Shown here: positions 728-51,173 of the stretch, piece after piece
Layout of the letters: each line of letters begins with the position of its first letter
How positions within the stretch are numbered: the first letter of the stretch is position 1
Source: a virus
IMG/VR virus record: IMGVR_UViG_3300024520_000102
Span: 1-52,331 of that record
DNA: 52,331 nucleotides
Strand: one strand, 5' to 3'
Made by a program: the position numbers and the translations under genes
The notes under the pieces: generated by a model
Seen by the model: the letters and a program-made list of their open reading frames with translations, nothing else
What the model was told of the DNA's origin: nothing
Database searches by the model: none

Positions 728-782
728 ATGGTACTCTATTTTACTCAGTAGTGCTTGACGCTTGCTCTACGCTTGCCCTATT
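728..782 (-). promoter_or_regulatory. 11-bp-repeat promoter, minus strand (site 1)
   Basis: Reading the minus strand, three phased 11-mers run AATAGGGCAAG, CGTAGAGCAAG, CGTCAAGCACT (782 to 750). A weak -10 hexamer TACCAT sits at 733-728, exactly 27 bases from the start of CGTCAAG. This is the weakest -10 of the twelve sites. The expected transcript start is near 721, the first base of the downstream gene. Confidence 0.6.
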
Positions 783-1089
783 GTCTCATTTGAACAATTT
801 CAGGCTCTTGATTAGGAGCAAAATGATACACCCCCGTTTCTTTCTCTACGAATACCACATTGCTATACCGCTCTACGTTAGCGGCCCAAACAAGGACGGG
901 ACACTCGTATTGTACATTGTGAATTACAATTTTATTAGTAACTACAACCCATTCATAATCTTTTCTTGGGTTGTCACAATGCAAATCGGTGTAAATGGGG
1001 AAAGCACACTCACTATCGGCAAGCACATCTGCAATCCACCCGTCAGGCGAAACTTCTGTACCAAAAAAAACGCCGTCATCTGTTAGCAT
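778..1089 (-). CDS. hypothetical protein, 103 aa
   Basis: The product is soluble and acidic, with probable beta strands (YEWVVVTNKIVIHNV and VLVWAANVERYSNVVFVEKETG). No family is recognised. It overlaps the start-side neighbour at 1076-1270 by 14 bases, and its 3' end runs into the upstream repeat of the 728-782 promoter. A plus-strand reading frame of similar length covers the same DNA, but it lacks a ribosome binding site and operon context. Confidence 0.6.
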   Translation of the reverse strand: MLTDDGVFFGTEVSPDGWIADVLADSECAFPIYTDLHCDNPRKDYEWVVVTNKIVIHNVQYECPVLVWAANVERYSNVVFVEKETGVYHFAPNQEPEIVQMRQ

Positions 1090-1270
1090 TAAACATTTCC
1101 TCTGTCAAATCTTCATACTCAAAATCAATAAACATATCTTTATTGTGCCTCACAAGTTGCCCGAACTCCCCAACTTTTGCCTCTAGTCGCTTTAACCAAA
1201 TGGTGTTAGGGAATAGTCGTGATAGCTCGGACAGGGCCAACATCTCGTTAATTAGTCGGTTTGCCCTCAT
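1076..1270 (-). CDS. hypothetical protein, 64 aa
   Basis: A short helical protein with an amphipathic N-terminal half (MRANRLINEMLALSELSRLF) and an acidic C-terminus. The ATG overlaps the TAA of the gene at 1270-1449 (TAATG), so translation is probably coupled. No family recognised. Confidence 0.6.
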   Translation of the reverse strand: MRANRLINEMLALSELSRLFPNTIWLKRLEAKVGEFGQLVRHNKDMFIDFEYEDLTEEMFNANR

Positions 1271-1449
1271 TAACTTTTGGCATCATCCGCCTGTGCCTCC
1301 AGCGCTTTTATAAACGCTTGCGTTAATCTAACAGTATTGTCGTGATAGACTTTAGAGTGATATTGAGTTGCACCACCCCACCCAATCCCGAAAAATCCAA
1401 GGCATACACTAGTTAATACGAAAAAAAAAACATCGGGACTAATGAGCAT
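1270..1449 (-). CDS. small membrane protein, 59 aa
   Basis: The N-terminus is hydrophobic, with VFFFVLTSVCLGFFGIG at about residues 7-23. It would serve as a signal anchor or transmembrane helix, and a charged C-terminal half (about residues 31-59) follows. The start ATG lies inside the last codons of the gene at 1439-1540, and the stop overlaps the next start. Position beside a holin-like gene suggests a role in lysis or the envelope, but this is inference from context. Confidence 0.6.
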   Translation of the reverse strand: MLISPDVFFFVLTSVCLGFFGIGWGGATQYHSKVYHDNTVRLTQAFIKALEAQADDAKS

Positions 1450-1540
1450 CTTTCCAAGCCTCCCATGCCAGCTTGGAGACGAAGCCAGCTATAAGACATA
1501 ACACAAGTAAAACAATTATTGCTAATGGCGAAATCATCAT
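1439..1540 (-). CDS. tiny single-pass membrane protein, 33 aa
   Basis: The first ~20 residues are strongly hydrophobic (MMISPLAIIVLLVLCLIAGF), and a short charged tail ends in KDAH. The start ATG overlaps the TGA of the upstream gene (ATGA). A second in-frame ATG at 1537 is an equal choice. It is too short for most gene callers. Coupling on both sides and the clear transmembrane composition support it. Function unknown; a lysis accessory role is possible. Confidence 0.55.
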   Translation of the reverse strand: MMISPLAIIVLLVLCLIAGFVSKLAWEAWKDAH

Positions 1541-2174: not shown

Positions 2175-2216
2175 AATATAGACATTCTACCATGTAGATG
2201 GCGAATTGTCATTATT

Positions 2217-3854
2217 TTATGATAACCTAGAAATCGCCTTAATTGCAAACCCATGCGTAATCATTTTCGCAATCGTTCCTTTAGTTGTGTGCTTTGTTAC
2301 GCCTTGCACATTTAGCTTTTTAGCGAGTTTCTTTTGCGGCTCACTTGCCTGAGTAGAGCGCCATGCCTCACCCTCTTTTGCTAGTTTCGCATTCCCCCAC
2401 TGGTTTGCTATATCCTCACTAATTAAGAATATATCCTCAAACACGCCGTTAGTATGTTGTCTAGCTTTCCAGTCCCAAGTATCTTTTTTCTTGCCAACTA
2501 AAAATAAATCATAACCATTCGGGGATGGTCTTAGCAATAATATCCGCTCGTTATTATCGTGAGCAGTACCAAGGCCAAGCGACTTACAACCATCTGGCGC
2601 ATTATACCACACCCAAGGCGATTGGCTGAGATATTCTAGTTTTTTAGCTACCAACGCCATGGGGTCTCCATTCAGGAATGAAAACTCATTTCCGTCATAA
2701 GTAAATCCACCCTCTACGTTATCATCACTAGAGCTATCATCAGGTTTTATATACTCTTTACGTTCTAGCGGTGTACCTAGAATATCCCCTAACATAGCAA
2801 TGTTGCGGGTATTACTTGGCGCATAATCAAGGATTACAGCATCCGTTTTGTTTGGGAATATCCTTAACGCCCTGCCGATAATTTGAGTGTAGAGGCTATC
2901 TGATTGAGTTGGCCTAACCTGATGAATTGCAGATACTTGGGGAACGTCTAGCCCTTCGGTGAACAAAGCACAATTACATAATACCTCATATTCCCCGCCC
3001 CTAAACCTTTCCAGAATGGCAGAGCGTTCTTTTTTGTTGGTCTTCCCATCAGCCGCTATTGCTCTTACTCCAGCCTCTTTGAATTTCTCCGCTAAATCAT
3101 AAGCACCTTGCACCGTTGTAGTATAAGCGAGCGATTGCCGACCATCAACATACTTTTTATGACTTTCTACTACTAGCTCGAAACAGTTATCGGTTTCAAA
3201 TACCTTACTGAGTTGTTTCTGGTTAAAGTCCCCCATCTGCTTTTTAACACCTTGCAGGCTTATCCCGGTTTGAATACTCAGAAACTTAACCGGTGCTAAA
3301 AACCCATTTTCAATCCCGAAACTTATAGTATACTTACCGCTCACTTTTTCGAATACTGTTGACAAACCATCGTCATCAGAGCGTAAAGGCGTAGCGGTTA
3401 CCCCAAGATGTTTGAGATTTGGATTATCTTTCCGCAACCGTTCATAAAGGTTTTTGTAGGTATTCGCTGTGGAGTGGTGAGCCTCATCAGTAATGATAAA
3501 ATCAATTTTCCCATAATCGAGAACTTGGCTCACTCTCTTTTCGCTTGCCAGAGTTTGAATGGTTGCTATTATCAAATCACTCTTATACTCATTCTTGTTA
3601 GCCATCACGATACCGGCTCTTGAAGCTAAGTAGGGAAAATATTGCTCTAATCGTTCCATTGGTTGGTCAATTAGCTCTTTTCGGTGAGCAATAATAATAC
3701 CACGTTTATCACTCTTAAGTACTTTATCAAGTAAGGCCGAGAAGATGATAGTTTTACCTAGTCCCGTGGCCGCTACTAATAAAATACTATTGTGAGTTTC
3801 CCAATCTGTGGCTATATTGTTTATTGCTTCTGTTTGGTACGGTCTTAATTTCAT
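2217..3854 (-). CDS. superfamily 2 DEAD/DEAH-box helicase, 545 aa
   Basis: This ATP-dependent nucleic acid helicase shows its motifs in order: a Q-like start (LRPYQTEAI), Walker A ATGLGKT near residue 30, motif II DEAH near residue 127, motif III TATPLR, and motifs V/VI in the second RecA domain (TEGLDVPQVSAIHQVRPT, then IIGRALR). The layout matches the SSL2/RAD25-like DEAD helicases common in phages, here with about 150 extra C-terminal residues I cannot assign. An 11-bp-repeat promoter lies directly upstream. Likely role: replication or recombination, together with the primase, D5 helicase and RecT. Confidence 0.93.
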   Translation of the reverse strand: MKLRPYQTEAINNIATDWETHNSILLVAATGLGKTIIFSALLDKVLKSDKRGIIIAHRKELIDQPMERLEQYFPYLASRAGIVMANKNEYKSDLIIATIQTLASEKRVSQVLDYGKIDFIITDEAHHSTANTYKNLYERLRKDNPNLKHLGVTATPLRSDDDGLSTVFEKVSGKYTISFGIENGFLAPVKFLSIQTGISLQGVKKQMGDFNQKQLSKVFETDNCFELVVESHKKYVDGRQSLAYTTTVQGAYDLAEKFKEAGVRAIAADGKTNKKERSAILERFRGGEYEVLCNCALFTEGLDVPQVSAIHQVRPTQSDSLYTQIIGRALRIFPNKTDAVILDYAPSNTRNIAMLGDILGTPLERKEYIKPDDSSSDDNVEGGFTYDGNEFSFLNGDPMALVAKKLEYLSQSPWVWYNAPDGCKSLGLGTAHDNNERILLLRPSPNGYDLFLVGKKKDTWDWKARQHTNGVFEDIFLISEDIANQWGNAKLAKEGEAWRSTQASEPQKKLAKKLNVQGVTKHTTKGTIAKMITHGFAIKAISRLS

Positions 3855-3860
3855 AAATTT

Positions 3861-3915
3861 ATATTATCACGGTTTAGAGCGTTTAACTTGACGGGAAGCC
3901 TACGGGTTGCCTACA
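3861..3915 (-). promoter_or_regulatory. 11-bp-repeat promoter, minus strand (site 2)
   Basis: On the minus strand the 11-mers TGTAGGCAACC, CGTAGGCTTCC and CGTCAAGTTAA run from 3915 to 3883. An extended -10 (TGA then TAATAT) has its hexamer at 3866-3861, exactly 27 bases after the start of CGTCAAG. The transcript would start a few bases upstream of the helicase ATG at 3854, giving a very short leader. Confidence 0.8.
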
Positions 3916-4427: not shown

Positions 4428-4450
4428 AAACTTATATCCTATATTTTTTT

Positions 4451-4561
4451 CACAACCGTTTACAACCGTTACAACCAGTTACATGCAAACTGTCGCTATA
4501 CACAATACATGTTTTAGACTACTTTACATGTAAACGGTTTGAAACGGTTGAAACGGTTGTG
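4451..4561. repeat. inverted iteron array, candidate replication origin
   Basis: Three copies of about 9-10 bases (ACAACCGTT, ACAACCGTT, ACAACCAGTT) at 4451-4485 face three inverted copies (AAACGGTTTG, AAACGGTTG, AAACGGTTG) at 4527-4561. A 41-base centre separates them. The two 35-base arms are nearly perfect inverted complements. Iterons next to a replicative helicase gene, with no gene on either strand across them, suggest an origin. A regulatory operator or a large terminator-like hairpin is the alternative. Confidence 0.55.
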
Positions 4562-4569
4562 ATACACAT

Positions 4570-6237
4570 TTAAGTAGAATATAACTCTATATTTATCCAA
4601 ACTTTTTTACCATTTTTAGATTGTCTTGAAAATCCTAGACTTTCCATCCGTTTATTAAATTTTCTATGTGTCAATTTATTAGGATCATCATAGGAAAAAC
4701 TCTCATAACTAAAACGCATATCTTTAACAGGTGTGCAGGCTCCAGTTTGTAATATACAGTTTTCTTCTATAAAATCAGGAAAATTGTCAGCCTCTTGGTG
4801 GTATGTTTCCGTTACCGCCTTGACGCTTTCGGGTATTTGCAAGCCGTGTTTTTGCCACTCAAGACACCCTGCAATAGACCAATTCAAAGCACCTGATATT
4901 TCAGACTGTAATTTCTCGATTAACTCAGTATCTCGTTTATGTTCAAATGGATTATCGGGGTCAGGGTTCTCAACAAATCTATGGATAAATGGAATTAAAA
5001 TTATTCTTTCCCATATCGCCCCGTCTAAACAATCAATAACGGGCTTAGGGTTTGTGATAAGGAAAATTTGATGTGTAGGCTTCCATTCTTGCGCCTTCTC
5101 ATATAGTCCCCTGCCAACGATAATGTCCCCCCCCGTTATCAGTTTAATAGTTGCTTCTTTTAGCTTGGCTTGTTTCTCGGTTTCTGACACATACCCAAGT
5201 CTTAAGCCTTTCAGTTCCATAAGGAAAGGGGTAGCACCTCCGTTTCTACCAGTATCAATAATTACATCAGAATGTATAGGCTTCATCAATGGTGATAGTA
5301 TATCTTTTAGAACCGTTACCAGTGTCGATTTTCCATTCCTGCCATCTTCCCCCCAAAATATCGGGAATATATGCTCTGTAGCTAATCCGGCGATTGAGTA
5401 ACCTATTAACCTCTGTATAAACCTTGCAAGCTCAATATCCCCCCCGAATATCTCAAGTATGAATTGTTCAAACCGTGGGCACTTAGCATGCGGGTCAAAA
5501 TCTGTACTAGATGCAGTTTTAATATAATCTGATGGATTACCATCTTTAAGCTGTCCAGTCGTTAAGTCAACCGTGCCATTATTCACGCCTAACAGCATGG
5601 GGTTATTATCCCAAACCTCCCCCTGAACACCCATAAGAGCCTCTGATAATTCTAATATTCTTTTAGTACGGTTTAACGCTCTTAACTTATTGCATCGCTC
5701 CATAAACGACGATGATAATAGTTTTAGTTGGTCTCTTTTTTCTATATCATCCTTGCTAATCTTGCCCCCACCATCCTTAATCCTACCTATTTCTGCACTC
5801 TTTGCCGCATATTCTGCATTAAGAGACATTGCCGATAAATGATATTGATTAGAAACCTGTACAATAAACAGAAACTTGATTGTATTTTTATCCGCTTGCC
5901 AGTGTACGCCATTCCATATATGCCATCTTTTAGCGGTGTTATCATACACTACACGGTTATGATACAGCTTATCAAAAATATAACTATCGCCTTGTTCGTT
6001 TTGATAGTAACAATCCTTAACAAATCCAATATCCAAGGCTGGCAACTGTTCTTTAATACATACCTTCGCAATCTCACCATTTACTGGCATCGGTAAATCA
6101 TCAACATTATCAAGAGCATAACGAACCGCATGTAGAGCCTTTTCTGTTTGCTCTTCTGTGTAACCTCTTGCCTTGTCTGCTATGCTGAAAAGCTCACTCT
6201 TTAGCTGTAACTCAGTTGGCTTTTCTGGCATTGCCAT
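4570..6237 (-). CDS. D5/P4-family replicative helicase (primase C-terminal type), 555 aa
   Basis: The C-terminal half shows the D5/P4 superfamily 3 helicase arrangement: a D5_N-like region (FEQFILEIFGGDIELARFIQ), Walker A GEDGRNGKST near residue 300, a Walker B region (GLRLGYVSETE) and a sensor ITNPKP. The N-terminal half lacks primase motifs; priming is probably supplied by the Toprim protein at 7816-8889. It should unwind DNA at the phage origin, and the iteron array directly follows its stop. The start overlaps the end of the small gene at 6212-6394. Confidence 0.9.
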   Translation of the reverse strand: MAMPEKPTELQLKSELFSIADKARGYTEEQTEKALHAVRYALDNVDDLPMPVNGEIAKVCIKEQLPALDIGFVKDCYYQNEQGDSYIFDKLYHNRVVYDNTAKRWHIWNGVHWQADKNTIKFLFIVQVSNQYHLSAMSLNAEYAAKSAEIGRIKDGGGKISKDDIEKRDQLKLLSSSFMERCNKLRALNRTKRILELSEALMGVQGEVWDNNPMLLGVNNGTVDLTTGQLKDGNPSDYIKTASSTDFDPHAKCPRFEQFILEIFGGDIELARFIQRLIGYSIAGLATEHIFPIFWGEDGRNGKSTLVTVLKDILSPLMKPIHSDVIIDTGRNGGATPFLMELKGLRLGYVSETEKQAKLKEATIKLITGGDIIVGRGLYEKAQEWKPTHQIFLITNPKPVIDCLDGAIWERIILIPFIHRFVENPDPDNPFEHKRDTELIEKLQSEISGALNWSIAGCLEWQKHGLQIPESVKAVTETYHQEADNFPDFIEENCILQTGACTPVKDMRFSYESFSYDDPNKLTHRKFNKRMESLGFSRQSKNGKKVWINIELYST

Positions 6238-6460: not shown

Positions 6461-6515
6461 TGTAGCTTAAGCGTATAGTAAGCGTCAAGCAATATCAAAA
6501 AGTATGGTGTATACT
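6461..6515 (+). promoter_or_regulatory. 11-bp-repeat promoter, plus strand (site 3)
   Basis: Units TGTAGCTTAAG, CGTATAGTAAG and CGTCAAGCAAT are contiguous at 6461-6493. The -10 TATACT is at 6510-6515, 27 bases from the start of CGTCAAG. It drives the recT gene. The minus-strand early promoter at 6429-6456 ends five bases away, so a protein bound to the 11-mers could also affect that promoter. Confidence 0.8.
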
Positions 6516-6554: not shown

Positions 6555-7349
6555 GTGACCGAACAAATAGTAAAATATGAAGCAAAAAACATGGTAAAAA
6601 CAGAGCCACCTAAGTCTTTGAATGAGTTGGTAGAAATGGCTGGTTTTCTTGCAAAATCACGTTTTTGGGGGATGGATGAAAATCAGATAATTAGTTTAAT
6701 GTTGGTAGCTCAGGCGGATGGTATTCCGGCTGTTAATGCGTTACGAGAATACAGTCTTATCAAGGAGAAACCAAGCATGAAAGCCGAAGCAATGCAGGCA
6801 AGGTTTCAACAGCATGGGGGTATTGTTAAATGGTTGGTAGTTTCAGATGTTGAGGTATCCGCCGAGTTTAATCATCCAAGTTCCAGCCCTGTGGTAATTA
6901 GCTGGACTATCGAGATGGCACAGCGGGCAGGGTTGGCAAATAAGGACGTATGGAAAAAGTATCCGCTTGACATGTTACGTAGTCGTTGCATTTCCAGAGG
7001 TGTCCGCACTTGTTACCCCGGCGTTATTCTTGGGATTTACACGCCGGAAGAGGTTGAATCGTTTAGTGAACCAGTCACTCAATACAATACTGATATTGTG
7101 GACGTTACGCCTGCCGGTGAGGTTGTCGCAGTACCAAAAACTAAAAAAACACTTACTCAATCTGACATGATAACCAACTTGTTAGCAAAACATGGATTAA
7201 GCGAAGATGAGGCGCTTTATAAAATCAGAGAACTCAGTAATATATCTGATTGGCCCGACGTTGCCCGTTCAGATATAGCAAGTTGGGAGAAAATCGACCA
7301 ATTGTTATCAGATAACGAATTAACCGACGAAGAAAACGAGGCCATGTAA
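6555..7349 (+). CDS. recT: RecT-family single-strand annealing protein, 264 aa
   Basis: RecT family pattern is clear: an N-terminal region favouring selection and reuse of DNA (SLNELVEMAGFLAKSRFWG, GIPAVNALREYSLIKEKPSM), the core AGLANKDVWKKYPLDMLRSR and the end motif GIYTPEEVE. Length is normal for the family. It anneals complementary strands in phage recombination and usually works with an exonuclease; the DUF1064-type protein downstream could be related to that step. The start is GTG at 6555, behind AAAGGAG. The C-terminus is a poorly conserved acidic extension. Confidence 0.92.
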   Translation: MTEQIVKYEAKNMVKTEPPKSLNELVEMAGFLAKSRFWGMDENQIISLMLVAQADGIPAVNALREYSLIKEKPSMKAEAMQARFQQHGGIVKWLVVSDVEVSAEFNHPSSSPVVISWTIEMAQRAGLANKDVWKKYPLDMLRSRCISRGVRTCYPGVILGIYTPEEVESFSEPVTQYNTDIVDVTPAGEVVAVPKTKKTLTQSDMITNLLAKHGLSEDEALYKIRELSNISDWPDVARSDIASWEKIDQLLSDNELTDEENEAM

Positions 7350-7681: not shown

Positions 7682-7725
7682 CGTAGGCTTACCGTCAAGT
7701 TAAACGATTAAAAGCATGATATAGT
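7682..7725 (+). promoter_or_regulatory. 11-bp-repeat promoter, plus strand (site 4)
   Basis: CGTAGGCTTAC and CGTCAAGTTAA are contiguous at 7682-7703. An extended -10 (TGA then TATAGT) has its hexamer at 7720-7725, spacing 27. It serves the primase gene. Confidence 0.8.
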
Positions 7726-7815
7726 AATCTCAATTCACCACCTCACCTCAATTAAAACTTACCTAAGCCATAAGAATACAAGCGGGGTGGGGTGGTGAAT
7801 AATGAGGACAATGAA

Positions 7816-8889
7816 ATGAAATACGATACTCAACAAATTAACGAACTTGAGCGGATTGAGGATTATATAGGTAAGTTTATAGACTTGAAACGGACTGGTA
7901 AAAACTTAAAGGGTTGCTGTCCGTTCCATAACAGCGCATCAGGTGAAAGTTTTGTTGTATTTCCTGAGACACAATCATGGCATTGTTATGGTGCGTGTCA
8001 TGAGAGTGGTGATAGGATTAAATTCCACATGAAAAAGTTCAATCTTGAATTTAAAGATGCTTGCAAGGATTTGAGCAACGGGCATACCTTATCTGAGGAT
8101 TACAAGCCCAAACCCACCCCAAAACGTCCCAAAATCAATGAGAGCTTCTACCCCGCTAAAGAGGATTATGATAATGCAGAAAACGCAACGGGTAACGCAT
8201 ACACAGAACTCAAAAAAATCCCTGTTGAGATTTTGCAAGAGTTGAAAGCTAAACAGGTTGACGATAAGATTTTAATCCCAATGTTTGGCGGTGGGAAAAT
8301 CAAAGGCTTTCAAGATATACAGTCAAGCCGTGATTGGGGTGCTGAGAAAATTACACGTGGTAATACGGGTTCTGCGATACTCGGCAAACTTAAAAATGGC
8401 GTTCCGATTTTATTAGGTGAAGGTATCGCAACTTGCGCCAGTGCCTACATTGCAACAGAGAAAAATTTACCCGTGGTAATCGCTTTTAACTCAGGTCGGT
8501 TGGCTTTAGTAGCGAAGGTGCTACGAAAACGATACGCCGATAGTGAGATATATATCTTGACTGATTTAGATAAAAGCATGACGGGCCAAAACATGTCAAT
8601 AGATATATCTGAAAATGTTGACAATGTTTACCCCATCATGCCGTCTAATAATTTGCACGGTATGAAATCTTTTGATTTCTCTGACTTGCATCTAAAATAC
8701 GGTTTAGATACCGTTGGTGAGGTAATCAACAATACAATCACTAAGCCCCCATGTGGTAGCGGACAATGTAAACCTGACGGAATATCAAAGGTTATGGTTG
8801 GTGGGAAACTACAGTGTTTGAATTGTGATAAATCTTATAAAGAAATCCCGTACGGGGTGAATATATTAAATCGAAGGTATGAAGAGTAA
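7816..8889 (+). CDS. Toprim primase with CHC2-type zinc finger, 357 aa
   Basis: An N-terminal zinc finger (CCPFHNSAS, then WHCYGACHESGD) resembles the CHC2 finger of DnaG. A Toprim region follows, with the acidic start ILLGEGIATC and the DxD-like segment ILTDLDKS. A second, C-terminal zinc ribbon (CGSGQC and CLNCDK) is present. It should synthesise RNA primers and partner with the separate D5 helicase, a split version of P4-type primase-helicases. I chose ATG 7816, preceded by GAGGAC, over the upstream in-frame GTG 7792. Confidence 0.88.
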   Translation: MKYDTQQINELERIEDYIGKFIDLKRTGKNLKGCCPFHNSASGESFVVFPETQSWHCYGACHESGDRIKFHMKKFNLEFKDACKDLSNGHTLSEDYKPKPTPKRPKINESFYPAKEDYDNAENATGNAYTELKKIPVEILQELKAKQVDDKILIPMFGGGKIKGFQDIQSSRDWGAEKITRGNTGSAILGKLKNGVPILLGEGIATCASAYIATEKNLPVVIAFNSGRLALVAKVLRKRYADSEIYILTDLDKSMTGQNMSIDISENVDNVYPIMPSNNLHGMKSFDFSDLHLKYGLDTVGEVINNTITKPPCGSGQCKPDGISKVMVGGKLQCLNCDKSYKEIPYGVNILNRRYEE

Positions 8890-10593: not shown

Positions 10594-10648
10594 CGTTGGG
10601 TAATCGTAGGCTTTCCGTCAAGTACGGATTAAAAAACCATGATAAGAT
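10594..10648 (+). promoter_or_regulatory. 11-bp-repeat promoter, plus strand (site 5)
   Basis: CGTTGGGTAAT, CGTAGGCTTTC and CGTCAAGTACG are contiguous at 10594-10626. The extended -10 (TGA then TAAGAT) has its hexamer at 10643-10648, spacing 27. This operon includes one of the two winged-helix genes (11717-12004), so autoregulation is plausible. The leader AAGGACTTAAACATT before the ATG is repeated at 38153-38167. Confidence 0.85.
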
Positions 10649-11283: not shown

Positions 11284-11726
11284 GACTAACCAACAAGATA
11301 ATTGAGATATATCCTAACCTAGATAGTGAGATACTCTACTATTTAAGTAAGCATCTTATAGGAAAATGGCCGCAATTGAACACAACAACTGAGTTAAGAT
11401 TAGTAAATTTATATCAATTAGCATTCAATTATCCTTTTGACCCACCTACACCAATCGTTGGCAATCGCACATTAAAACCAACTAAGGGGATTAAGGCGAA
11501 AATTGCCCGAATTGCTTATGAGTTTTATAAACATGATAGGTTGGAATGTTTAGGGTTTTACGAAGAGCCTACACTTAACGAAGACAATTTTTATACAAGA
11601 ACTATAGAATTAGAATTACTGAATATACGACAACCGAACAATAACCTGCATGGTTATTTTGGATATGAGCCACTAACTGACACGCTTTATATTAAACAGT
11701 TAGAGGATGGGATGAAATGGAAATAG
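11261..11726 (+). repeat. 23-bp direct repeat bracketing a gene
   Basis: The 23 bases at 11261-11283 recur exactly at 11704-11726 (they contain GGATGGGATGAAATGG). Both copies form the stop of one gene and, inside it, the ATG of the next, so the unit between them is one complete gene (11274-11726). This is what insertion or duplication at a start/stop junction would leave. Confidence 0.85.
11274..11726 (+). CDS. hypothetical protein, 150 aa
   Basis: Mostly helical protein (YLSKHLIGKWPQLN, ELRLVNLYQLAFNYPF). No family recognised. It begins and ends in the same 23-base repeat as its upstream neighbour, sharing the start MEIG/MEIE and the end DGMKWK, although the rest of the proteins does not look alike. 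This suggests an inserted gene captured by recombination at the junction. Confidence 0.7.
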   Translation: MEIGLTNKIIEIYPNLDSEILYYLSKHLIGKWPQLNTTTELRLVNLYQLAFNYPFDPPTPIVGNRTLKPTKGIKAKIARIAYEFYKHDRLECLGFYEEPTLNEDNFYTRTIELELLNIRQPNNNLHGYFGYEPLTDTLYIKQLEDGMKWK

Positions 11727-12004
11727 AACTAGATAAAAATAATATTGATCTGTGGATAGACGGACTGATTTTAGAGCCTCCGTTATCGCCACTGCAACTC
11801 GCATGTGTTCAGCAAGTGCTAAAAACGCCTAATAATTTCGCAACTTATGACAATCTACTGAGTTATTTATATGGTACTACAAAACGAGTTACGATGCGTT
11901 TTGATTCGTTAGTACGTCGTATTAACGAAAGAGTACCAAATCTGATAAAACGCAAGAGAGGGCACGGGGTGTATATAAATAAGGCAGGTCAACATGGGAA
12001 TTAA
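11717..12004 (+). CDS. PhoB/OmpR-type winged-helix DNA-binding protein without receiver, 95 aa
   Basis: The chain fits a trans_reg_C domain: LSPLQLACVQQVLKTPNNF (helix 1 and turn), TYDNLLSYLYG (helix 2), VTMRFDSLVRRINERVP (recognition helix) and KRKRGHGVYI (wing, like RGVGYxx in PhoB). No phosphoacceptor domain precedes it; only about 20 residues stand before the fold. PhoB/OmpR proteins bind tandem 11-bp repeats overlapping the -35 region, which is exactly the arrangement at this phage's promoters. I infer an activator of that regulon. The wing sequence is repeated as a remnant at 12568-12600. Confidence 0.8.
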   Translation: MEIELDKNNIDLWIDGLILEPPLSPLQLACVQQVLKTPNNFATYDNLLSYLYGTTKRVTMRFDSLVRRINERVPNLIKRKRGHGVYINKAGQHGN

Positions 12005-13349: not shown

Positions 13350-13847
13350 ATGCAATATCGTACAATGGCAGATTTTGAATTTTGGCACATGGAGCCGTTA
13401 TTCGATTGTTATCGGGAGATAAAACAAATGGAAAATCAAGAATTAAACTTAGAACCAAAAACGCCGCAGGACTTTTTGAACAATGCTATTTATGTAAAAG
13501 CTAATCATTTAGCTTTACAGTATGAAGTAGAAGAAATCACAGAGGATGAGATTGAGGCGGCAACAGAAGAAATTAGATGCGGTTATGATGTAGAAACAGG
13601 ACTGGATGCTTCTGAAATTGTAAGGAATTGGGTAACATATTTTATCGTTACACATGTTGCTAAACTGATACAAGGTCGGTGGGTTGGCTGGCTATATTGC
13701 AACACAACCGACGAATACCAAGATAGTGCTAACTCGTATGACTGGCTTGGGAACGCTCACTTCTTAGATGTTGAGGAACGAATACAGACAGTTCAAATCT
13801 TTAGCCGTCAGCCAAGCGTAGAGCAAGCGTCAAGCACTACGGAATAA
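13350..13847 (+). CDS. hypothetical protein, 165 aa
   Basis: Acidic helical first half (YEVEEITEDEIEAATEEI) and an aromatic second half (WVGWLYCNTTDEYQDSANSY). No family recognised. The last 42 bases of the coding sequence overlap the 11-bp-repeat promoter at 13806-13860, so the C-terminal residues are constrained by regulation. Confidence 0.7.
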   Translation: MQYRTMADFEFWHMEPLFDCYREIKQMENQELNLEPKTPQDFLNNAIYVKANHLALQYEVEEITEDEIEAATEEIRCGYDVETGLDASEIVRNWVTYFIVTHVAKLIQGRWVGWLYCNTTDEYQDSANSYDWLGNAHFLDVEERIQTVQIFSRQPSVEQASSTTE

Positions 13848-13860
13848 AGCATGATAAGAT
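13806..13860 (+). promoter_or_regulatory. 11-bp-repeat promoter inside a gene end (site 6)
   Basis: CGTCAGCCAAG, CGTAGAGCAAG and CGTCAAGCACT are contiguous at 13806-13838. The extended -10 (TGA then TAAGAT) has its hexamer at 13855-13860, spacing 27. The operators lie in the 3' end of the preceding gene. The transcript should begin near 13867, four bases before ATG 13871. Confidence 0.85.
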
Positions 13861-14654: not shown

Positions 14655-14661
14655 CAAATAC

Positions 14662-14803
14662 CGACAGTCAGCATGTGGTGTAAATGCTTAGACAGCAAAG
14701 TAGTTGTCTGGATTGCGAGAGGCTAGGCGGTAGCCCGTCGATAAGTGGCTCGTATATTTAATCTTCCAAAAAGATTGACGGGAGTCCGATTCCCCCACTG
14801 TCG
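14662..14803 (+). ncRNA. tRNA-like structured element
   Basis: Ends CGACAGT (14662-14668) and ACTGTCG (14797-14803) form a perfect 7-bp acceptor-like stem. A D-arm-like hairpin follows (GCAT/ATGC, 14671-14687). A T-arm-like hairpin GGGAG-TCCGATT-CCCCC precedes the 3' end. At 142 bases it is too long for a tRNA; the middle has GGCTA/TAGCC and AATCT/AGATT hairpins. A shorter 76-base fold from 14728 uses the same 3' half with a wobble-rich acceptor. It may be a tRNA with an insertion or a decayed tandem. Confidence 0.4.
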
Positions 14804-14872
14804 AATAGCGAAACTAAGTAGGTTAGCTACCTGCTAAAGTCGTTAAGCGTGGGGTGCATACCTCACACGCAA

Positions 14873-14926
14873 AACCCCCTTTCACGAGGCCAGCCATTAA
14901 TTTCTATTGGGGGTTGAGGGCTGGTC
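14873..14926 (+). ncRNA. predicted H-type pseudoknot beside tRNA-like element
   Basis: Stem 1 is AACCCCC (14873-14879) with GGGGGTT (14909-14915), 7 bp. Stem 2 is GGCCAGCC (14888-14895) with GGCTGGTC (14919-14926), 8 bp with one G-U. They interleave with linkers of 8, 12-13 and 3 bases, which is the geometry of a pseudoknot. The next base starts the tRNA-like element at 14927. Confidence 0.5.
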
Positions 14927-14993
14927 AGGGCTGTAGTTTAATTGGTAGAACGCCGTTGTATACGGTAGTGTGGGGTCGATACCCATCAGCCTA
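14927..14993 (+). tRNA. tRNA-like gene, short anticodon arm (anticodon read as GTA, Tyr)
   Basis: Acceptor GGGCTG/CAGCCT (with one G-U), D arm GTTT-AATTGGTA-GAAC and T arm GTGGG-GTCGATA-CCCAT are all good. The anticodon stem is only CCG/CGG around TTGTATA. The total is 67 bases, about four short of normal, and base 37 is T rather than a purine. It could be a functional minimal tRNA, a decayed tRNA or a tRNA mimic. Confidence 0.5.
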
Positions 14994-15053
14994 AATAGAT
15001 TACCCCCCTTTGGTGGTTTAGCGAGTGGCTAAATCATCATCGGGGTTAGCTAA

Positions 15054-15087
15054 AAAGCAGGGTATCATAGATACGATACCCTGCTTT
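15054..15087 (+). terminator. strong hairpin, probable terminator
   Basis: AAAGCAGGGTATC (15054-15066) and GATACCCTGCTTT (15075-15087) form a perfect 13-bp stem with an 8-base loop. There is no long T tract beyond TTT. It closes the RNA region that starts near 14660. A second hairpin, GGTTTAGC/GCTAAATC, lies at 15015-15035. No protein gene is seen at 14655-15103. Confidence 0.6.
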
Positions 15088-17623: not shown

Positions 17624-17665
17624 GTTATGAAGAGTTATGAACTGGGGTTATGAAGAGTTATGAAC
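17624..17665 (+). promoter_or_regulatory. four GTTATGAA repeats over the start of a regulator gene
   Basis: A 19-base unit (GTTATGAAGAGTTATGAAC) occurs at 17624-17642 and 17647-17665. This gives four GTTATGAA boxes spaced 9, 14 and 9 bases apart. The last box contains the ATG of the winged-helix gene at 17660. This is a good candidate for an autoregulatory DNA or RNA operator. Confidence 0.6.
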
Positions 17666-17941
17666 ACAATCAATTTAACGATAGACAAGAACCGGAGACT
17701 GATAAGCATAGACGACCAAGTGCTACAACTCAGCAAAAAACAATATCGGCTGATGGTGTTACTAGCTGATGGGGCCGTCAGCTACGGTGAACTGTGGCAA
17801 GAACTAGATTATCACAGCAAATCAGGCTTTAATAGCTTATTGCATCGCACAATAAATAAAACAGGAACAGGCGTATTCCGCCAAGCGAGAGGGTGGGGTC
17901 TGAGCTACAGTAAAAGCGTGATTGTGAGTGTGAAGGAATAA
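17660..17941 (+). CDS. second PhoB/OmpR-type winged-helix protein without receiver, 93 aa
   Basis: A short beta N-terminus (INLTIDKNRRLISIDDQVLQ) precedes LSKKQYRLMVLLADG (helix 1), SYGELWQELDY (helix 2), GFNSLLHRTINKTG (recognition helix) and FRQARGWGLSY (wing). The N-terminal beta sheet and RGxGxxY wing are hallmarks of trans_reg_C domains. As in the protein at 11717-12004 there is no receiver domain. Either or both could bind the 11-bp promoter repeats; this one also has its own repeat cluster over its start. Confidence 0.75.
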   Translation: MNTINLTIDKNRRLISIDDQVLQLSKKQYRLMVLLADGAVSYGELWQELDYHSKSGFNSLLHRTINKTGTGVFRQARGWGLSYSKSVIVSVKE

Positions 17942-17944
17942 ACA

Positions 17945-18223
17945 ATGACAAACTATCATATCGGGATTAAACCCGTCTGGGCAAACGCTTACAGTGTGCC
18001 GCATTGTTGGGGCTATGAGGGGATGACCAAAAACACAGTAACTCATGTTGTTTTTGATGAACCATTTGAGGCAGGCCGCTTAAAGCGGGCCAAAGGTGAA
18101 TATTTATGCAGTCAGTCGAAAGGAGACGGCAAATACTTACCACGAAACAACAAGGTATTCAAAGAAATTACTTGTAAGAAGTGTTTTAAGATGGCTTTGA
18201 GACTAGGAATTATAATAGCGTAG
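17945..18223 (+). CDS. hypothetical protein with C-terminal CxxC, 92 aa
   Basis: His and Cys residues are scattered (VPHCWGYEG, YLCSQSKGDG, ITCKKCFKMA), which could make a small zinc site. No family recognised. Its 3' end overlaps the first operator of the promoter at 18219. Confidence 0.65.
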   Translation: MTNYHIGIKPVWANAYSVPHCWGYEGMTKNTVTHVVFDEPFEAGRLKRAKGEYLCSQSKGDGKYLPRNNKVFKEITCKKCFKMALRLGIIIA

Positions 18224-18273
18224 GGTAATCGTAGGCTTGCCGTCAAGTACGGATTAGAAAAGCATGGTAGAAT
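18219..18273 (+). promoter_or_regulatory. 11-bp-repeat promoter, plus strand (site 7)
   Basis: CGTAGGGTAAT, CGTAGGCTTGC and CGTCAAGTACG are contiguous at 18219-18251. An extended -10 (TGG then TAGAAT) has its hexamer at 18268-18273, spacing 27. It is highly similar to the site at 10594 through the leader, including AAGTCAAGGACTTAA. Confidence 0.88.
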
Positions 18274-18302: not shown

Positions 18303-18491
18303 ATGATGATTAACACACCTATCAAAGCTATCACTATCGGCGCTCAAATTGTAGTAAAGAGTGTTAAGTATACTGTAATCCACACTACGCCACACACAAT
18401 AACGTTGAAACGAAAAAGCGGTCGCAAGCATTACAAAGCGGCTTACACCAAAACCGAAAATCAATATTACCTCCTAGGGTTGCCGAGATGA
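18303..18491 (+). CDS. hypothetical basic protein, 62 aa
   Basis: Small basic beta-rich protein (QIVVKSVKYTVIHTTPHTIT, then LKRKSGRKHYKAAY) with the look of a nucleic-acid-binding beta barrel. No family recognised. The end overlaps the next ATG by four bases. Confidence 0.65.
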   Translation: MMINTPIKAITIGAQIVVKSVKYTVIHTTPHTITLKRKSGRKHYKAAYTKTENQYYLLGLPR

Positions 18492-18706
18492 CCATCAAAC
18501 AATTTTACGCCATCATCACTCAGGCGGGCCACAACGCTAACCATTTCAGTGTAGCCCGTGGCAGTCGCTCACTCTCGGTAATCTATGAGCGACGACGATT
18601 TAACACGGTTGGGCTGTCTCAACAAGTAATCAATTCTATAATGTCACTATTCGCTGATAGTCGATTAACCGATTGGAACGAAATAATTATACCGGTGGGA
18701 ACATAA
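18488..18706 (+). CDS. hypothetical protein, 72 aa
   Basis: Short protein with a helix-strand layout (MTIKQFYAIITQAGHNANHF, then SLSVIYERRRF). It is coupled to the upstream gene by ATGA. No family recognised. Confidence 0.6.
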   Translation: MTIKQFYAIITQAGHNANHFSVARGSRSLSVIYERRRFNTVGLSQQVINSIMSLFADSRLTDWNEIIIPVGT

Positions 18707-18709
18707 CAA

Positions 18710-18958
18710 ATGGACATGGAAAATCTCGCAAAACAATTGAATAATTTAACGATTGGGAATATTCCTGTTAATACAAAAGCTGAATATCTAAAAAAGTCAG
18801 ATAGCGTCTCTTTGCAATTAGCTGGTGGTAGATATACGCTCGCAGAATATGAAAAGCATATTTTTTGCTCAAAAGATGGACGGTTTTGTCTTTTGCCGCT
18901 AACGTCTGCGACGGCATTATCAATAGTAATGAAACTTTGGGAGAAAAATAATGACTAA
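18710..18958 (+). CDS. hypothetical protein, 82 aa
   Basis: First gene of a run of four small overlapping genes. Compact alpha/beta protein ending in a helix (TSATALSIVMKLWEKNN). The end helix is like those in the two related proteins downstream. No family recognised. Confidence 0.6.
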   Translation: MDMENLAKQLNNLTIGNIPVNTKAEYLKKSDSVSLQLAGGRYTLAEYEKHIFCSKDGRFCLLPLTSATALSIVMKLWEKNND

Positions 18959-19283
18959 AACAATGTTCGCAGTAGGCAAAGTCAACAATGGCAAGATTGA
19001 ATATCGACAACCAAGCATAGCCGCTACAATTCGAGAAGCGTTAAAGGGCCTCGTAGGTCACGAGGGTCTGATTAACCATAGCCCGCTAAAAGAGGGGCAA
19101 GTAATCACAAACGGGCATAGGACTTGTAGGATTACTAAATTAGTTTGGGATGAGAAAAAGGCGCAAATTTACGCCCGAACCAAGAACGTCAACGCCGCTG
19201 GCAATCCGGCTGGTAATCCCCGATTGACAGGGTACAGGCCGGTTAATGACTTGGTAAAAGAGGGGTGGGGGTGTGTGGAATGA
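18951..19283 (+). CDS. hypothetical basic protein, 110 aa
   Basis: Basic protein (ATIREALKGLVGHEGLINHS, then KVNGG-like turns and NPAGNPRLTGYRP). The start lies inside the end of the upstream gene and its TGA overlaps the next ATG. No family recognised. Confidence 0.6.
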   Translation: MTKTMFAVGKVNNGKIEYRQPSIAATIREALKGLVGHEGLINHSPLKEGQVITNGHRTCRITKLVWDEKKAQIYARTKNVNAAGNPAGNPRLTGYRPVNDLVKEGWGCVE

Positions 19284-19600
19284 CACTAGTTATAGAGCCT
19301 AGGCAGTGGGCAGAACCTCACCCCATTAAGGGCGTTTTAATAGTCGATGATGAGATAGACAGAGCAATTCTTACAGATATTGTTACATTTAGGCGTTTTA
19401 TATTAGGAGTTAATATTTTTAACACACCTACCAATATTACGATTGATCTACAAACACCCAACGGTGAAACGATCTACGAATATACAGACAAAAACGCTTT
19501 TGTGTTTTGGGAGCAATTGGCAGAGATGGTTTCCAGAGAAGTTAAAATAAAAATGCTTAAATTTTCAGAGCGCTTGAAGGAGAAAAATGACGACAATTAA
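19280..19600 (+). CDS. hypothetical protein, 106 aa, possible paralogue of next gene
   Basis: An alpha/beta layout with a central strand region (YEYTDKNAFVFWEQLAEMVS) and a C-terminal helix (REVKIKMLKFSERL). The following gene has the same layout and a similar FW..L..MV..... end. I choose ATG 19280, in an ATGA overlap, over the longer frame. Function unknown. Confidence 0.65.
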   Translation: MTLVIEPRQWAEPHPIKGVLIVDDEIDRAILTDIVTFRRFILGVNIFNTPTNITIDLQTPNGETIYEYTDKNAFVFWEQLAEMVSREVKIKMLKFSERLKEKNDDN

Positions 19601-19907
19601 AATTGAAGCGCCAGCAATAGACGGTATTTTTTTTGCACACAGAGACGACGACGATACGAGATATGGCACATTAACTGATGTAAAAACACTTAATCGTTTT
19701 ACTTTAAGAATAAGATACAACAATGACGACACGTTAAAAGTTTGGTTAGACGTTTATGGCGCTGTTTATGGTAGGGCCTCTCCTTTGTGTACATGGCATA
19801 AAGGAGAGGCTGAGGACTTTTGGCTAGGGTTAAGAAAAATGGTTGACGAAAGAACAAGTGAAAAAATGCAACGATGGTATAGTCTAGCTTCGGACCGCAA
19901 AGTTTAG
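19587..19907 (+). CDS. hypothetical protein, 106 aa, possible paralogue of previous gene
   Basis: Acidic N-terminus (HRDDDDTRYGTLTDV) and a C-terminal FWLGLRKMVDERTSEKM helix that parallels FWEQLAEMVSREVKIKM in the preceding gene. This suggests a tandem duplication with strong divergence. It is the last gene of the plus-strand block and ends just before a bidirectional terminator. Confidence 0.65.
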   Translation: MTTIKIEAPAIDGIFFAHRDDDDTRYGTLTDVKTLNRFTLRIRYNNDDTLKVWLDVYGAVYGRASPLCTWHKGEAEDFWLGLRKMVDERTSEKMQRWYSLASDRKV

Positions 19908-22478: not shown

Positions 22479-22544
22479 CGTAGGGTAAACGTAGGGTAAT
22501 CGTATAGTTTCCGTCAAGTACGGATTGAAAATGCATGGTATTAT
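22479..22544 (+). promoter_or_regulatory. 11-bp-repeat promoter, plus strand (site 8)
   Basis: Four contiguous 11-mers CGTAGGGTAAA, CGTAGGGTAAT, CGTATAGTTTC and CGTCAAGTACG occupy 22479-22522. The extended -10 (TGG then TATTAT) has its hexamer at 22539-22544, spacing 27. It is divergent from the minus-strand fibre genes and drives a plus-strand pair. Confidence 0.9.
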
Positions 22545-23153: not shown

Positions 23154-23215
23154 GAAAAATACAAGTTGGCAGACCTTAAAAAAACTGCCAGCCAACTAAC
23201 TAAACGGAGATCAAA

Positions 23216-24294: not shown

Positions 24295-24313
24295 TTATGT
24301 CACGGAGATTAAA

Positions 24314-24744: not shown

Positions 24745-24763
24745 TCTAATGGAGACAATAAAA

Positions 24764-29478: not shown

Positions 29479-29544
29479 CGTAGGGTAAACGTAGGGTAAT
29501 CGTATAGTTCCCGTCAAGTACGAATTAGAAAAGTAGGTTATACT
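29479..29544 (+). promoter_or_regulatory. 11-bp-repeat promoter, plus strand (site 10)
   Basis: CGTAGGGTAAA, CGTAGGGTAAT, CGTATAGTTCC and CGTCAAGTACG are contiguous at 29479-29522. The -10 TATACT is at 29539-29544, spacing 27. The promoter and its leader are almost identical to the site at 23938. It is divergent from the distal-tail gene. Confidence 0.9.
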
Positions 29545-30178: not shown

Positions 30179-30226
30179 TGCCTTTTTATTAGCTGGTTAC
30201 AGTCAAGTTAGAATAGGAGTAACACA

Positions 30227-30418
30227 ATGAAACATAAAAAAGAAATGAGTGGAAAAGAAATGCGCCTTGCAATTTTGCAAGGCAAGGCCAAGCTATTACG
30301 CAGGGTTGGAGTACAACGCCGCCCTGTTTATCAGATTGACGATAAAATTTATGAACAAGCTATTTATTTTGATGATGGATACACACACTCTCATTTTTAT
30401 TTAAAAGGCAATGATTAG
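30227..30418 (+). CDS. hypothetical basic protein, 63 aa
   Basis: Small basic protein (MSGKEMRLAILQGKAKLLRR, then IDDKIYEQAIYFDDGY) with a helix then strands. AGGAG is nine bases upstream. It ends ten bases before the convergent tape measure gene. Function unknown. Confidence 0.6.
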   Translation: MKHKKEMSGKEMRLAILQGKAKLLRRVGVQRRPVYQIDDKIYEQAIYFDDGYTHSHFYLKGND

Positions 30419-38052: not shown

Positions 38053-38118
38053 CGTAGGGTAAACGTAGGGTACTAGTAGGGTTTCCGTCAAGTACGATAG
38101 TTGGAACTGTAGTATACT
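38053..38118 (+). promoter_or_regulatory. 11-bp-repeat promoter, plus strand (site 11)
   Basis: CGTAGGGTAAA, CGTAGGGTACT, AGTAGGGTTTC and CGTCAAGTACG are contiguous at 38053-38096. The -10 TATACT is at 38113-38118, spacing 27. Its leader ends in AAGGACTTAAACATT before the ATG, as at 10669-10683. Confidence 0.9.
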
Positions 38119-38167: not shown

Positions 38168-38593
38168 ATGACTAACTCAATCAACTTTCCCAAAATAGCA
38201 ACTTATATCGGAACCAATGATGAGAAAGACCACTGTGAAAAATGCGGAAAAACTGGTCTCAAGCGAGTAATGTGGTTTTTTGATGATATTACAGGTAAAG
38301 ATTGGGCATTAGGGACCACTTGTGGCGCAAGATTAATGGGTATTAGCGAAAAAACAAACGCAAAAAACGAAAGTAGTATTTTTTCTACGCTTCAAGATTT
38401 GACAGGTAAACAAATAGAGATGAAAGGCGTTATATTTAACGTTTTGAAAGTAAAAGGTAACGAAATAAAAATATTGAAGGATGGATTAGAACCGATAACA
38501 ATTCGTAAAAATTTTTATGGTCATACAATAAAACTAATAAACTCATATTTCATAACTTTGAAAAAATCAACCAATTTCAAAGTTGTAAACTAA
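38168..38593 (+). CDS. zinc-finger protein, hypothetical, 141 aa
   Basis: An N-terminal knuckle DHCEKCGKTGLK is followed by TTCGARLMGI, a form of zinc-binding unit seen in phage and plasmid accessory proteins of unknown role. The C-terminal half is basic and beta-rich (VKGNEIKILKDGLEPITIRK). It is on the plus strand inside the virion operon with its own repeat promoter. The stop overlaps the convergent gene by four bases. Confidence 0.7.
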   Translation: MTNSINFPKIATYIGTNDEKDHCEKCGKTGLKRVMWFFDDITGKDWALGTTCGARLMGISEKTNAKNESSIFSTLQDLTGKQIEMKGVIFNVLKVKGNEIKILKDGLEPITIRKNFYGHTIKLINSYFITLKKSTNFKVVN

Positions 38594-46113: not shown

Positions 46114-46168
46114 TTAATATTCTAACAGTTGATAATTTAATATTAAAGCATTAGTTTAAAAAAATAAA

Positions 46169-46239
46169 GCGAGAACGGGAATCGAACCCGTCAAATGGGG
46201 CTTATGAAACCCCCGTCCGCACCAGCCGACATCCCTCGC
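46169..46239 (-). tRNA. tRNA with CAT anticodon (Met-type)
   Basis: On the minus strand: acceptor GCGAGG/TCTCGC, D arm GTCG-GCTGGTGC-GGAC, anticodon arm GGGGT-TTCATAA-GCCCC, variable ATTTG and T arm ACGGG-TTCGATT-CCCGT. The anticodon is CAT. It could be elongator Met or, if position 34 is lysidine-modified, Ile for ATA codons. No encoded CCA. It lies between protease and portal-side genes, downstream of a terminator, so it needs its own promoter or processing. Confidence 0.9.
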
Positions 46240-46306
46240 AATAATTAGACGTTATGAATTTACCATGATAAGGATAAATTGTCAAGAAATCAATTAAACG
46301 TTAAAC

Positions 46307-48769: not shown

Positions 48770-48797
48770 AAAAAACCCCCTGAGTTGGGGGTTTTTT
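48770..48797 (-). terminator. terminator after the helicase-methyltransferase gene
   Basis: AAAAAACCCCC (48770-48780) pairs with GGGGGTTTTTT (48787-48797). The orientation serves the minus-strand gene that ends at 48805; it precedes the portal gene at 48702. AAAAAGGAGAG just below (on the plus strand) is not a start site. Confidence 0.85.
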
Positions 48798-48804
48798 ACA
48801 AAAC

Positions 48805-51075
48805 TTAAAACATTTGACGTTGACCTTCTTTAATATTTAATATTTTCATATTTTTAACTGCAAAATCGAAATACGATGGTTTTAATTCGCATCCAATCGC
48901 ATCACGCCCCATCCTTAATGCCTGATAAACTTCGCTTCCAATCCCCATAAACGGTGTGAATACTGTTTCATCCGGATTTGTCCATAAGCGAATACAACGC
49001 TCAATTGTGCCTAGCTGGAGAGGGCATACATGCCTCTCATCGTTAGCATGCCGTGCTTTTTGAAAGCCTTGTAATGTGTCACTTTCGAGAATGTTATACC
49101 ATGTGGCAGTCATTCCACTATCGGCGGCTCTGTCTTCCTCTCCATCTTCAAAAACACCGGGCCATATCGGATTAGCTAATTCGATCCATCCGTCTCCATC
49201 CATCCCACCCCTAACTGGTATCTGATTTTCTCCGTCCTTTCGGAACTTCAAAATATAATCAGGCAGAGCAGGGCGTAGCCATACTCGGTCTTTTTTCATT
49301 TGCGTCATAGTCAGAGCTTTTGAATGAGTGCGGATGCTTTGCGCCTGCTGGTTTTTATCTATCGGTATCCTGCCATCAAAAATCCAACCTTCGGCAATGT
49401 ATGCTCGTATAACATCACCGCTAAAATCTTTAAGACCAATATAGCCATCTTTCCCAAGCATTGCCGGAATATCCGCAACATGTACAGCCGTAACACGCCC
49501 CGGCTTTGTAATACGCAAAAGATCACGAATGATATATTTGTAATGGTTGAAAAATGTATCACTATCGGAACTATTACCTAAATCTCGCTCAGTCGGCGTG
49601 TATGTGTACAAATCTACAAAAGGAGGGGAGTATACACTCAAATCAATCGAGCAATCATCCATGCTATTCATGCGCTCACAACTATCACCTTTCATCAGTT
49701 TGTATGATTGTTCCTGAAAAGTTCCATTTACCGTATCGGTCTCGTATTCAAACTTAGATTGATGCCCACCTTTCAATGTATCGCTTTGAATTTCTTTAAT
49801 CAGTACATTCCCCATATCTAAAGCCCTCTCTCCTTTTTTGATAATGTTATCATATATCGCCTGCTCTATTTCGGTAAACACAATCCATACATTCACCTTT
49901 TCATCTTGCCCAAATCGCCACTGCCTACGAATTGATTGATAAAATATCTCCCAACTATCGGATATTCCGCAGAATATCATATTGTGGCAATGCTGAAAAT
50001 TCATACCAAAACCTGCTATTTTAGGCTTTGTGATTAAGTGTTTTTCGCCGTCTAGGAATTGCTGAAAACGTTCTAATTTTTGATTTGGTTTGTGTTTACC
50101 TGCAACCTGTACACTGTCAGGTAATTCGTTTCCCAATTTATCACATTCGGCATTGAACCATCCCCAAATCAAGAATTGTTCATCAGGATTTTTGGCTACA
50201 ATATCCAAAGTCGCATTAACTTTATCTGCCATTGTAACCTTGCGAACCTTAGCACGGTCACTAATACCCTTTAATCCCGTATTAAACATTTTACCATCAC
50301 TCATGTCATGCTTATGGTCAACGATGACGGGGATATAATTTATTTTTGGCAAAATGTAACCATCATCTGAATAGTCACCAATATCAGATGGTAACTTGAG
50401 CGTAATTGACCAACTGGAAACCCATCTATAAAATCCCTCTCTCCCATGTTTACGCAGTCGCCACCCCTTATCATCGTGAACAAAAAACTTAGCTAACATT
50501 TCCTCACGGCTCATAACCCCAAGAAATGCCGCATGGTTAGCCATTTCTGCCACGTCATTAGGTGCAGGCGTAGCAGTGAAGGCGAAACGATATGGTACGC
50601 ATGCCCAATCTTGAATGAGCTTAGTTTTAGTTTTACCTGCGATTGACTTGAGAATGGAACTCTCATCTAAGTACAAGCCCCCAAACGTTGACGGGTCAAA
50701 CTTATCTAGCCGTTCATAGTTTGTGATATAAATATCATCATGAAAGTTTATGTCTGAGTTGTTTTGAGCATATTTAATCTCAATACCGAACAACTCCTCA
50801 GCTTGTTTAATCGTCTGATGTGTTACGCCTAACGGCGCTACAATCAATTGAGGCTTAGTTGTAGCCTCCGCTATTACTCTTGCCAGTTCAATTTGCATGA
50901 TAGTTTTACCTAGCCCCGTATCGGCAAAAACAGCATAGCGGCCTTGCTCAAGAGCCAATTGTATAATTTTTGCTTGAAATGGAAACAATACTGAATGAGG
51001 TACATAATCAATATCCACAGATTGACCATTCCATACTACAGCCTTGGTATGTAAAAACTCTTTATAAGTACTCAT
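48805..51075 (-). CDS. SNF2-type helicase fused to a DNA methyltransferase, 756 aa
   Basis: Residues about 1-450 are a superfamily 2 SNF2-like ATPase: FPFQAKIIQLA, Walker A ADTGLGKT, motif II YLDES (DEx-type), FTATPAPND and the end motif QSIRRQWRFGQ. Residues about 480-756 are a beta-class DNA methyltransferase: motif IV SPPF first, then motif I TPFMGIGSEVYQALRMGRDA near the end. SPPF is typical of N4-cytosine and some N6-adenine enzymes. Likely functions are protection of phage DNA from restriction or a packaging/recognition tag. It heads the virion operon after an 11-bp-repeat promoter. Confidence 0.85.
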   Translation of the reverse strand: MSTYKEFLHTKAVVWNGQSVDIDYVPHSVLFPFQAKIIQLALEQGRYAVFADTGLGKTIMQIELARVIAEATTKPQLIVAPLGVTHQTIKQAEELFGIEIKYAQNNSDINFHDDIYITNYERLDKFDPSTFGGLYLDESSILKSIAGKTKTKLIQDWACVPYRFAFTATPAPNDVAEMANHAAFLGVMSREEMLAKFFVHDDKGWRLRKHGREGFYRWVSSWSITLKLPSDIGDYSDDGYILPKINYIPVIVDHKHDMSDGKMFNTGLKGISDRAKVRKVTMADKVNATLDIVAKNPDEQFLIWGWFNAECDKLGNELPDSVQVAGKHKPNQKLERFQQFLDGEKHLITKPKIAGFGMNFQHCHNMIFCGISDSWEIFYQSIRRQWRFGQDEKVNVWIVFTEIEQAIYDNIIKKGERALDMGNVLIKEIQSDTLKGGHQSKFEYETDTVNGTFQEQSYKLMKGDSCERMNSMDDCSIDLSVYSPPFVDLYTYTPTERDLGNSSDSDTFFNHYKYIIRDLLRITKPGRVTAVHVADIPAMLGKDGYIGLKDFSGDVIRAYIAEGWIFDGRIPIDKNQQAQSIRTHSKALTMTQMKKDRVWLRPALPDYILKFRKDGENQIPVRGGMDGDGWIELANPIWPGVFEDGEEDRAADSGMTATWYNILESDTLQGFQKARHANDERHVCPLQLGTIERCIRLWTNPDETVFTPFMGIGSEVYQALRMGRDAIGCELKPSYFDFAVKNMKILNIKEGQRQMF

Positions 51076-51118
51076 TAATTCTCCTATGGTGTTTATAAAT
51101 TTCGTAATTCCTTAGTTT

Positions 51119-51173
51119 ATCTTATCATGATTTAGAGCGTTTAACTTGACGGTAAACCTACGATTGAGTTACG
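51119..51173 (-). promoter_or_regulatory. 11-bp-repeat promoter, minus strand (site 12)
   Basis: On the minus strand CGTAACTCAAT, CGTAGGTTTAC and CGTCAAGTTAA run from 51173 to 51141. An extended -10 (TGA then TAAGAT) has its hexamer at 51124-51119, spacing 27. It is the only repeat promoter I find that reads into the virion gene block, so it may be the main late promoter. The sequence from CGTCAAG to the -10 is nearly identical to site 2 (3861-3915). Confidence 0.88.

Follow-up and report, generated by a model that had tools for sequence, protein, structure and literature searches.

The DNA analyzed here, referred to as the window, is the whole 52,331-nucleotide stretch of the viral record IMGVR_UViG_3300024520_000102. 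Its predicted promoters and the genes of two small winged-helix proteins, p1 and p2, are listed in Table 1. The original prediction, made from the sequence alone, had claimed twelve promoters with a fixed distance of 27 bases between operator and -10 hexamer, and when the window sequence was read back all twelve sites were present at the claimed coordinates and strands, with CGTCAAG starting exactly 27 nt before TANNNT in each (12/12).

Table 1. Predicted promoters and winged-helix genes of the window
Feature	Position	Strand	Genes led	Remarks
Promoter	728-782	-		Boxes AATAGGGCAAG/CGTAGAGCAAG/CGTCAAGCACT; -10 TACCAT; ATG 6 nt past the -10, near-leaderless
Promoter	3861-3915	-	Helicase 2217-3854	-10 TAATAT, ATG 6 nt beyond
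Promoter	6461-6515	+	RecT-like gene 6555-7349
Promoter	7682-7725	+	Primase 7792-8889 and genes after it	2 boxes
Promoter	10594-10648	+	Gene run with winged-helix ORF p2 and dCTP deaminase
Promoter	13806-13860	+	13859/13871-14134 and genes after it
Promoter	18219-18273	+	Small genes 18303-19907
Promoter	22479-22544	+	Plus-strand cassette 22737-23401 within the structural block	4 boxes
Promoter	23938-24003	+	Cassette 24043-25021	4 boxes
Promoter	29479-29544	+	Cassette 29591-30418	4 boxes
Promoter	38053-38118	+	Gene 38168-38593	4 boxes, one mutated
Promoter	51119-51173	-	Helicase-methyltransferase 48805-51075	Sole site pointing into the structural block
p2	11717-12004	+		Consists of an OmpR-type winged helix alone; specifically related to the DNA-binding domain of host FHA-wHTH
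p1	17660-17941	+		Second small winged-helix protein; generally OmpR-like, weak but consistent

The pattern CGTCAAG-N20-TANNNT had exactly 12 matches in the window, against 0 for a reversed-pattern control. TANNNT stood at exactly N20 in 12 of the 16 CGTCAAG words, its background frequency being 2.1% per position, and CGTA/CGTC starts were paired 28 times at a distance of 11 bp but only 0-12 times at other distances. A position matrix trained on host promoters only scored the twelve sites at 24.8-42.1 bits and nothing else in the window above 8; the maximum in 100 dinucleotide shuffles was 13.3 bits. Each site has two to four good boxes, as originally described, but the boxes are not intact throughout, one upstream unit of the 38053 site being mutated (CTAGTAGGG). 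An extended -10 TG was seen at most sites, a clear -35 (TTGACA-like element) was found at none of the twelve, and a start codon and open reading frame lie downstream of each. We take the sites to be putative phage promoters with a transcription start predicted behind each -10. At sites 728, 3861, and 13806 the start codons lie about 5-11 nt past the -10, so their transcripts may be leaderless or nearly so.

This arrangement matches the tandem operators of OmpR/PhoB-type proteins. Mycobacterium tuberculosis PhoP recognizes direct repeats of 7 bp that are strictly 4 bp apart, and its binding is tighter where three or four of them follow one another (PMC4832192). The phage sites likewise consist of head-to-tail 7-bp motifs with 4-bp spacers, and the replacement of the -35 near the -10 is also found here, with CGTCAAG at its constant place at all sites. 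The proposal that phased operators of this type stand in for the -35 is thus supported.

The sites precede helicase, RecT-like, primase, dCTP-deaminase, and small-gene operons. Four of them (22479, 23938, 29479, and 38053) lie inside the minus-strand structural block, yet lead plus-strand cassettes that resemble morons. The late structural genes mostly lack the motif, and only 51119(-) faces the structural block, through the helicase-methyltransferase gene. The proposed control of replication and early genes is consistent with this layout; control of the late genes, and with it an activator running the late programme, is unsupported because that site alone points into the block.

Three further features of the window were noted. 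Clustered AACCGTT/AACGGTT repeats in two opposite blocks (4440-4570) adjoin a D5 primase-helicase gene and are possibly the iterons of an origin. A tRNA-Met gene was called by ARAGORN within the structural block (46167-46240, minus strand). The region 14655-15060 is non-coding and holds tRNA-like pieces, with no ARAGORN call and no Rfam family match; no Rfam family matched anywhere in the window.

Bacterial genomes were scanned for two boxes with the spacing, the pattern being taken from the phage, and at least 119 stretches matched. Of the 80 loci listed from these, 74 belonged to Chloroflexota, mostly Anaerolineae, and 68 had a hitherto undescribed small RNA downstream of the promoter. The RNA is about 70-90 nt long and occurs in one or a few copies per host. 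In it, a C/U-rich tract that ends in CUCCUCCUU and is complementary to Shine-Dalgarno sequences precedes a GC-rich hairpin whose loop is usually GUCGGCGU-like. In an alignment of 59 loci, both-sided compensatory changes were observed at 9 of the 10 base pairs of the hairpin. No Rfam family exceeded its threshold for the RNA; membership in the anti-hemB family (RF02837) was rejected, one member scoring 32.7 bits against a gathering threshold of 49.5. The phage does not carry the RNA. In the ten Anaerolineae genomes scanned, the promoter occurred only once or twice per multi-megabase genome, with 15 matches in total, nearly all of them RNA promoters, and a stricter two-box pattern had four matches in 24 genomes, all at RNA promoters. 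Comparison of the promoter-RNA loci revealed no regulator gene conserved beside the RNA. In two Anaerolineae loci (L054 and L085) the RNA is repeated several times in tandem and every copy has a separate promoter, and in two others (L059 and L067) a long-inverted-repeat sequence that looks like a small mobile element lies between the promoter and the RNA body.

Since these host promoters were found with a phage-derived pattern, they cannot prove the motif by themselves, and for independent evidence a model of the RNA was run on 301 Chloroflexota genomes without promoter information. It matched 33 genomes. Phased CGT boxes, some of them variant, were present upstream of all 30 loci fetched; 22 of the 30 had the full promoter pattern, and in 26 of the 27 measurable loci the last box started 27 nt before the -10. 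With a box matrix built from 27 of these loci, the phage sites ranked top of the window. Phage and host genomes thus share the same promoter architecture, which in the host presumably controls the small-RNA gene. Fixed spacing and an invariant CGTCAAG could also be expected if an alternative sigma factor, and not a separate activator, read the motif. We consider this very improbable, since two to four phased upstream copies are unlike the behavior of sigma factors and sigma-70-like -10 and extended -10 (TGNTANNNT) elements are present.

The promoter was also found in other viral contigs, where it precedes protein genes. Contig G001 (124.6 kb, 33% GC) has four sites at the same spacing; it has only distant structural proteins in common with the window (capsid-like, 31% identity; portal-like, 25%). 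Two viral contigs (L165 and L167) have one site each. A 7-kb contig binned as Proteobacteria (L082) has four such promoters before small ORFs; in our judgement, which draws on no protein match, it is probably a misbinned fragment of an Anaerolineae phage. The viral match L017 was rejected as a single chance match, and L164 and L166 were rejected likewise because they had no further boxes. The motif was absent from the phages that share the D5 primase (L010-L016).

A single activator, as was first proposed, is probable; it is most likely encoded by the host and not by the phage, because the promoter belongs to a host class used in Anaerolineae for the small RNA. Four OmpR-type regulators were common to the six RNA-positive genomes examined, one of them a protein with an FHA domain (Pfam FHA, 79.9 bits) followed by an OmpR-type winged helix (Trans_reg_C, 60.9 bits), here called FHA-wHTH; the others form clusters A-C. 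Among the 301 Chloroflexota genomes, 34 had an FHA-wHTH ortholog, 33 the RNA, and 31 both (E ≤ 1e-60, a cut chosen after the scores were seen; Fisher p about 2e-36, uncorrected for kinship, with shared ancestry a confounder). Of the four regulators, the FHA-wHTH protein was the one whose co-occurrence was profiled. In three genomes the protein was present and the RNA undetected, and two RNA-model matches lay in genomes without the protein, where the boxes were absent too. A match of this kind is locus L295 (genome G151), with C/U tract and hairpin and no boxes. The recognition helix of FHA-wHTH is nearly invariant across 30 genomes (DAL[IVL]RRLR[DE]R), and a gene for a Hanks-type Ser/Thr kinase adjoins the FHA-wHTH gene in 25 of 30 loci. 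Autoregulation through the boxes was rejected, as the gene of the candidate shows none.

The pairing with a kinase recalls M. tuberculosis EmbR/PknH, in which an FHA and an OmpR-type DNA-binding domain are linked to a Ser/Thr kinase (PMC4601284). Like EmbR, the candidate combines the two domains in one protein; unlike EmbR (wHTH-BTA-FHA), it has the FHA domain first and the winged helix last, and it had no match to a BTA domain.

On these data the host FHA-wHTH protein is the best candidate and likely the activator. Another host OmpR-type response regulator might bind the boxes instead, with the link to FHA-wHTH a by-product of shared ancestry; clusters A-C are present in all six genomes examined as well, and tandem boxes suit any protein of this fold (PMC4832192). 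We regard this as unlikely, because the RNA-model matches without boxes sit in genomes without FHA-wHTH and because phage protein p2 resembles the FHA-wHTH protein specifically.

The original prediction had pointed to two winged-helix proteins of the phage, and both exist. Protein p2 lacks both an FHA and a receiver domain and aligns over its whole length with the winged helix of FHA-wHTH. Its six best matches among 58 regulators were the six FHA-wHTH proteins (best 5.5e-9), and it scored 26.4 bits against a profile of that domain, compared with at most 10.7 for 4000 shuffles. For p1, Foldseek listed mostly OmpR-type domains, with E no better than 0.03. AlphaFold models made without alignments were of low confidence (pLDDT 57.8 for p1 and 47.6 for p2), and the Pfam Trans_reg_C model found neither protein. 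Searches of viral contigs with whole p1 and with the host DNA-binding domain gave no relatives. An input from the phage is likely, since one of its winged-helix proteins is specifically related to the host candidate, but it would be secondary to the host activator.

One of these proteins could nevertheless be the main activator; the similarity to host promoters would then mean that the phage took over the operator and p2 jointly from a host. It would fit that p2 is specifically related to the DNA-binding domain of the candidate and is encoded in an operon led by one of the promoters, and that p1 has a general likeness to OmpR. This seems less likely still than binding by another host regulator: p2 itself lies behind such a promoter, which would first have to be switched on by something else; the host makes use of this promoter in the absence of the phage; and in G001, which has these promoters too, no relative of p1, p2, or the host FHA-wHTH protein could be detected, an argument that the host protein is enough in that phage.

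The repeats might also be repressor operators, through which p2 would silence the promoters, or decoys that titrate the host regulator off the small RNA. It would fit that p2 has no regulatory domain and that, once the phage genome replicates, its twelve sites with several boxes each could exceed the one or few sites of the host. We doubt this more than a phage-encoded main activator, because the boxes occupy the place of the -35 at a constant distance, a TTGACA-like element is lacking, and an ORF follows each site, as in activated promoters; titration could still occur as a side effect.

The explanation that we favor, with a probability of roughly 70%, is that the phage promoters copy a host class of Anaerolineae, that the host FHA-wHTH protein is likely their activator, and that p2 is a phage-made relative of it, binding and activation being deduced from sequence. 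The small RNA of the host would be driven by head-to-tail 11-bp boxes, two to four in number, the last with CGTCAAG 27 nt upstream of the -10. Arrayed along these boxes, the FHA-wHTH protein would do the work of a -35 by recruiting RNA polymerase. When the phage enters, the same protein would fire its replication, early, and cassette promoters, and p2, a winged helix without FHA, would then be made from one of these operons. It might keep the promoters active independently of the kinase, or it might be a competitor of the host protein. The promoter class thus looks hijacked from the host, and a domain encoded by the phage probably amplifies or overrides it; control by the kinase and the function of p2 are presumed parts of this scheme and stand apart from the observed ones. 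More tentatively, most of the early and replication transcription of the phage may depend on a FHA-OmpR regulator under control of a Ser/Thr kinase, whose use in the host is almost wholly confined to one small RNA, with the FHA-less p2 freeing the promoters, possibly including that of the host RNA, from kinase control. The promoter and the kinship of p2 also suggest that the phage host belongs to Anaerolineae; a search for the phage capsid in 298 genomes of the class gave only one weak relative.

Two further known systems are close to this one. In cyanophages S-PM2d and P-SSM2, genes including that of DNA polymerase carry host Pho boxes, and PhoB binding was shown by gel shift (PMC10976474). 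There as here, phage genes carry operators of a host regulator of the OmpR/PhoB fold (here a candidate). The cyanophage boxes, however, are degenerate, vary in position, occur at some genes, and belong to a nutrient-stress response regulator, whereas here near-identical boxes sit in a fixed place at twelve promoters, the host regulon is mainly one small RNA, and the phage encodes a relative of the candidate regulator. The csRNAs of Streptococcus have Shine-Dalgarno-complementary tracts and 11-bp-phased boxes of the OmpR-type regulator CiaR, with TTTAAG-N5-TTTAAG 10 nt from the -10 (PMC3091779). Here the boxes are CGTAGGG/CGTCAAG, 20 nt from the -10 and thus about one helical turn further upstream, the RNA is unrelated, and the candidate regulator has FHA in place of a receiver. 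The open-licence literature searched contained no description of the combination with its phage copy of the DNA-binding part.

The finding brings together a conserved Anaerolineae small RNA and the promoter dedicated to it, a candidate FHA/kinase regulator with OmpR-type reading of DNA, and phages for which that promoter is the principal one. It offers a testable link between kinase signaling and the transcription of phages in a phylum that is poorly represented in culture, and viral contigs can be assigned to Anaerolineae hosts with the promoter as a sequence signature. If true, a virus would here borrow a control system of its host in a new way.
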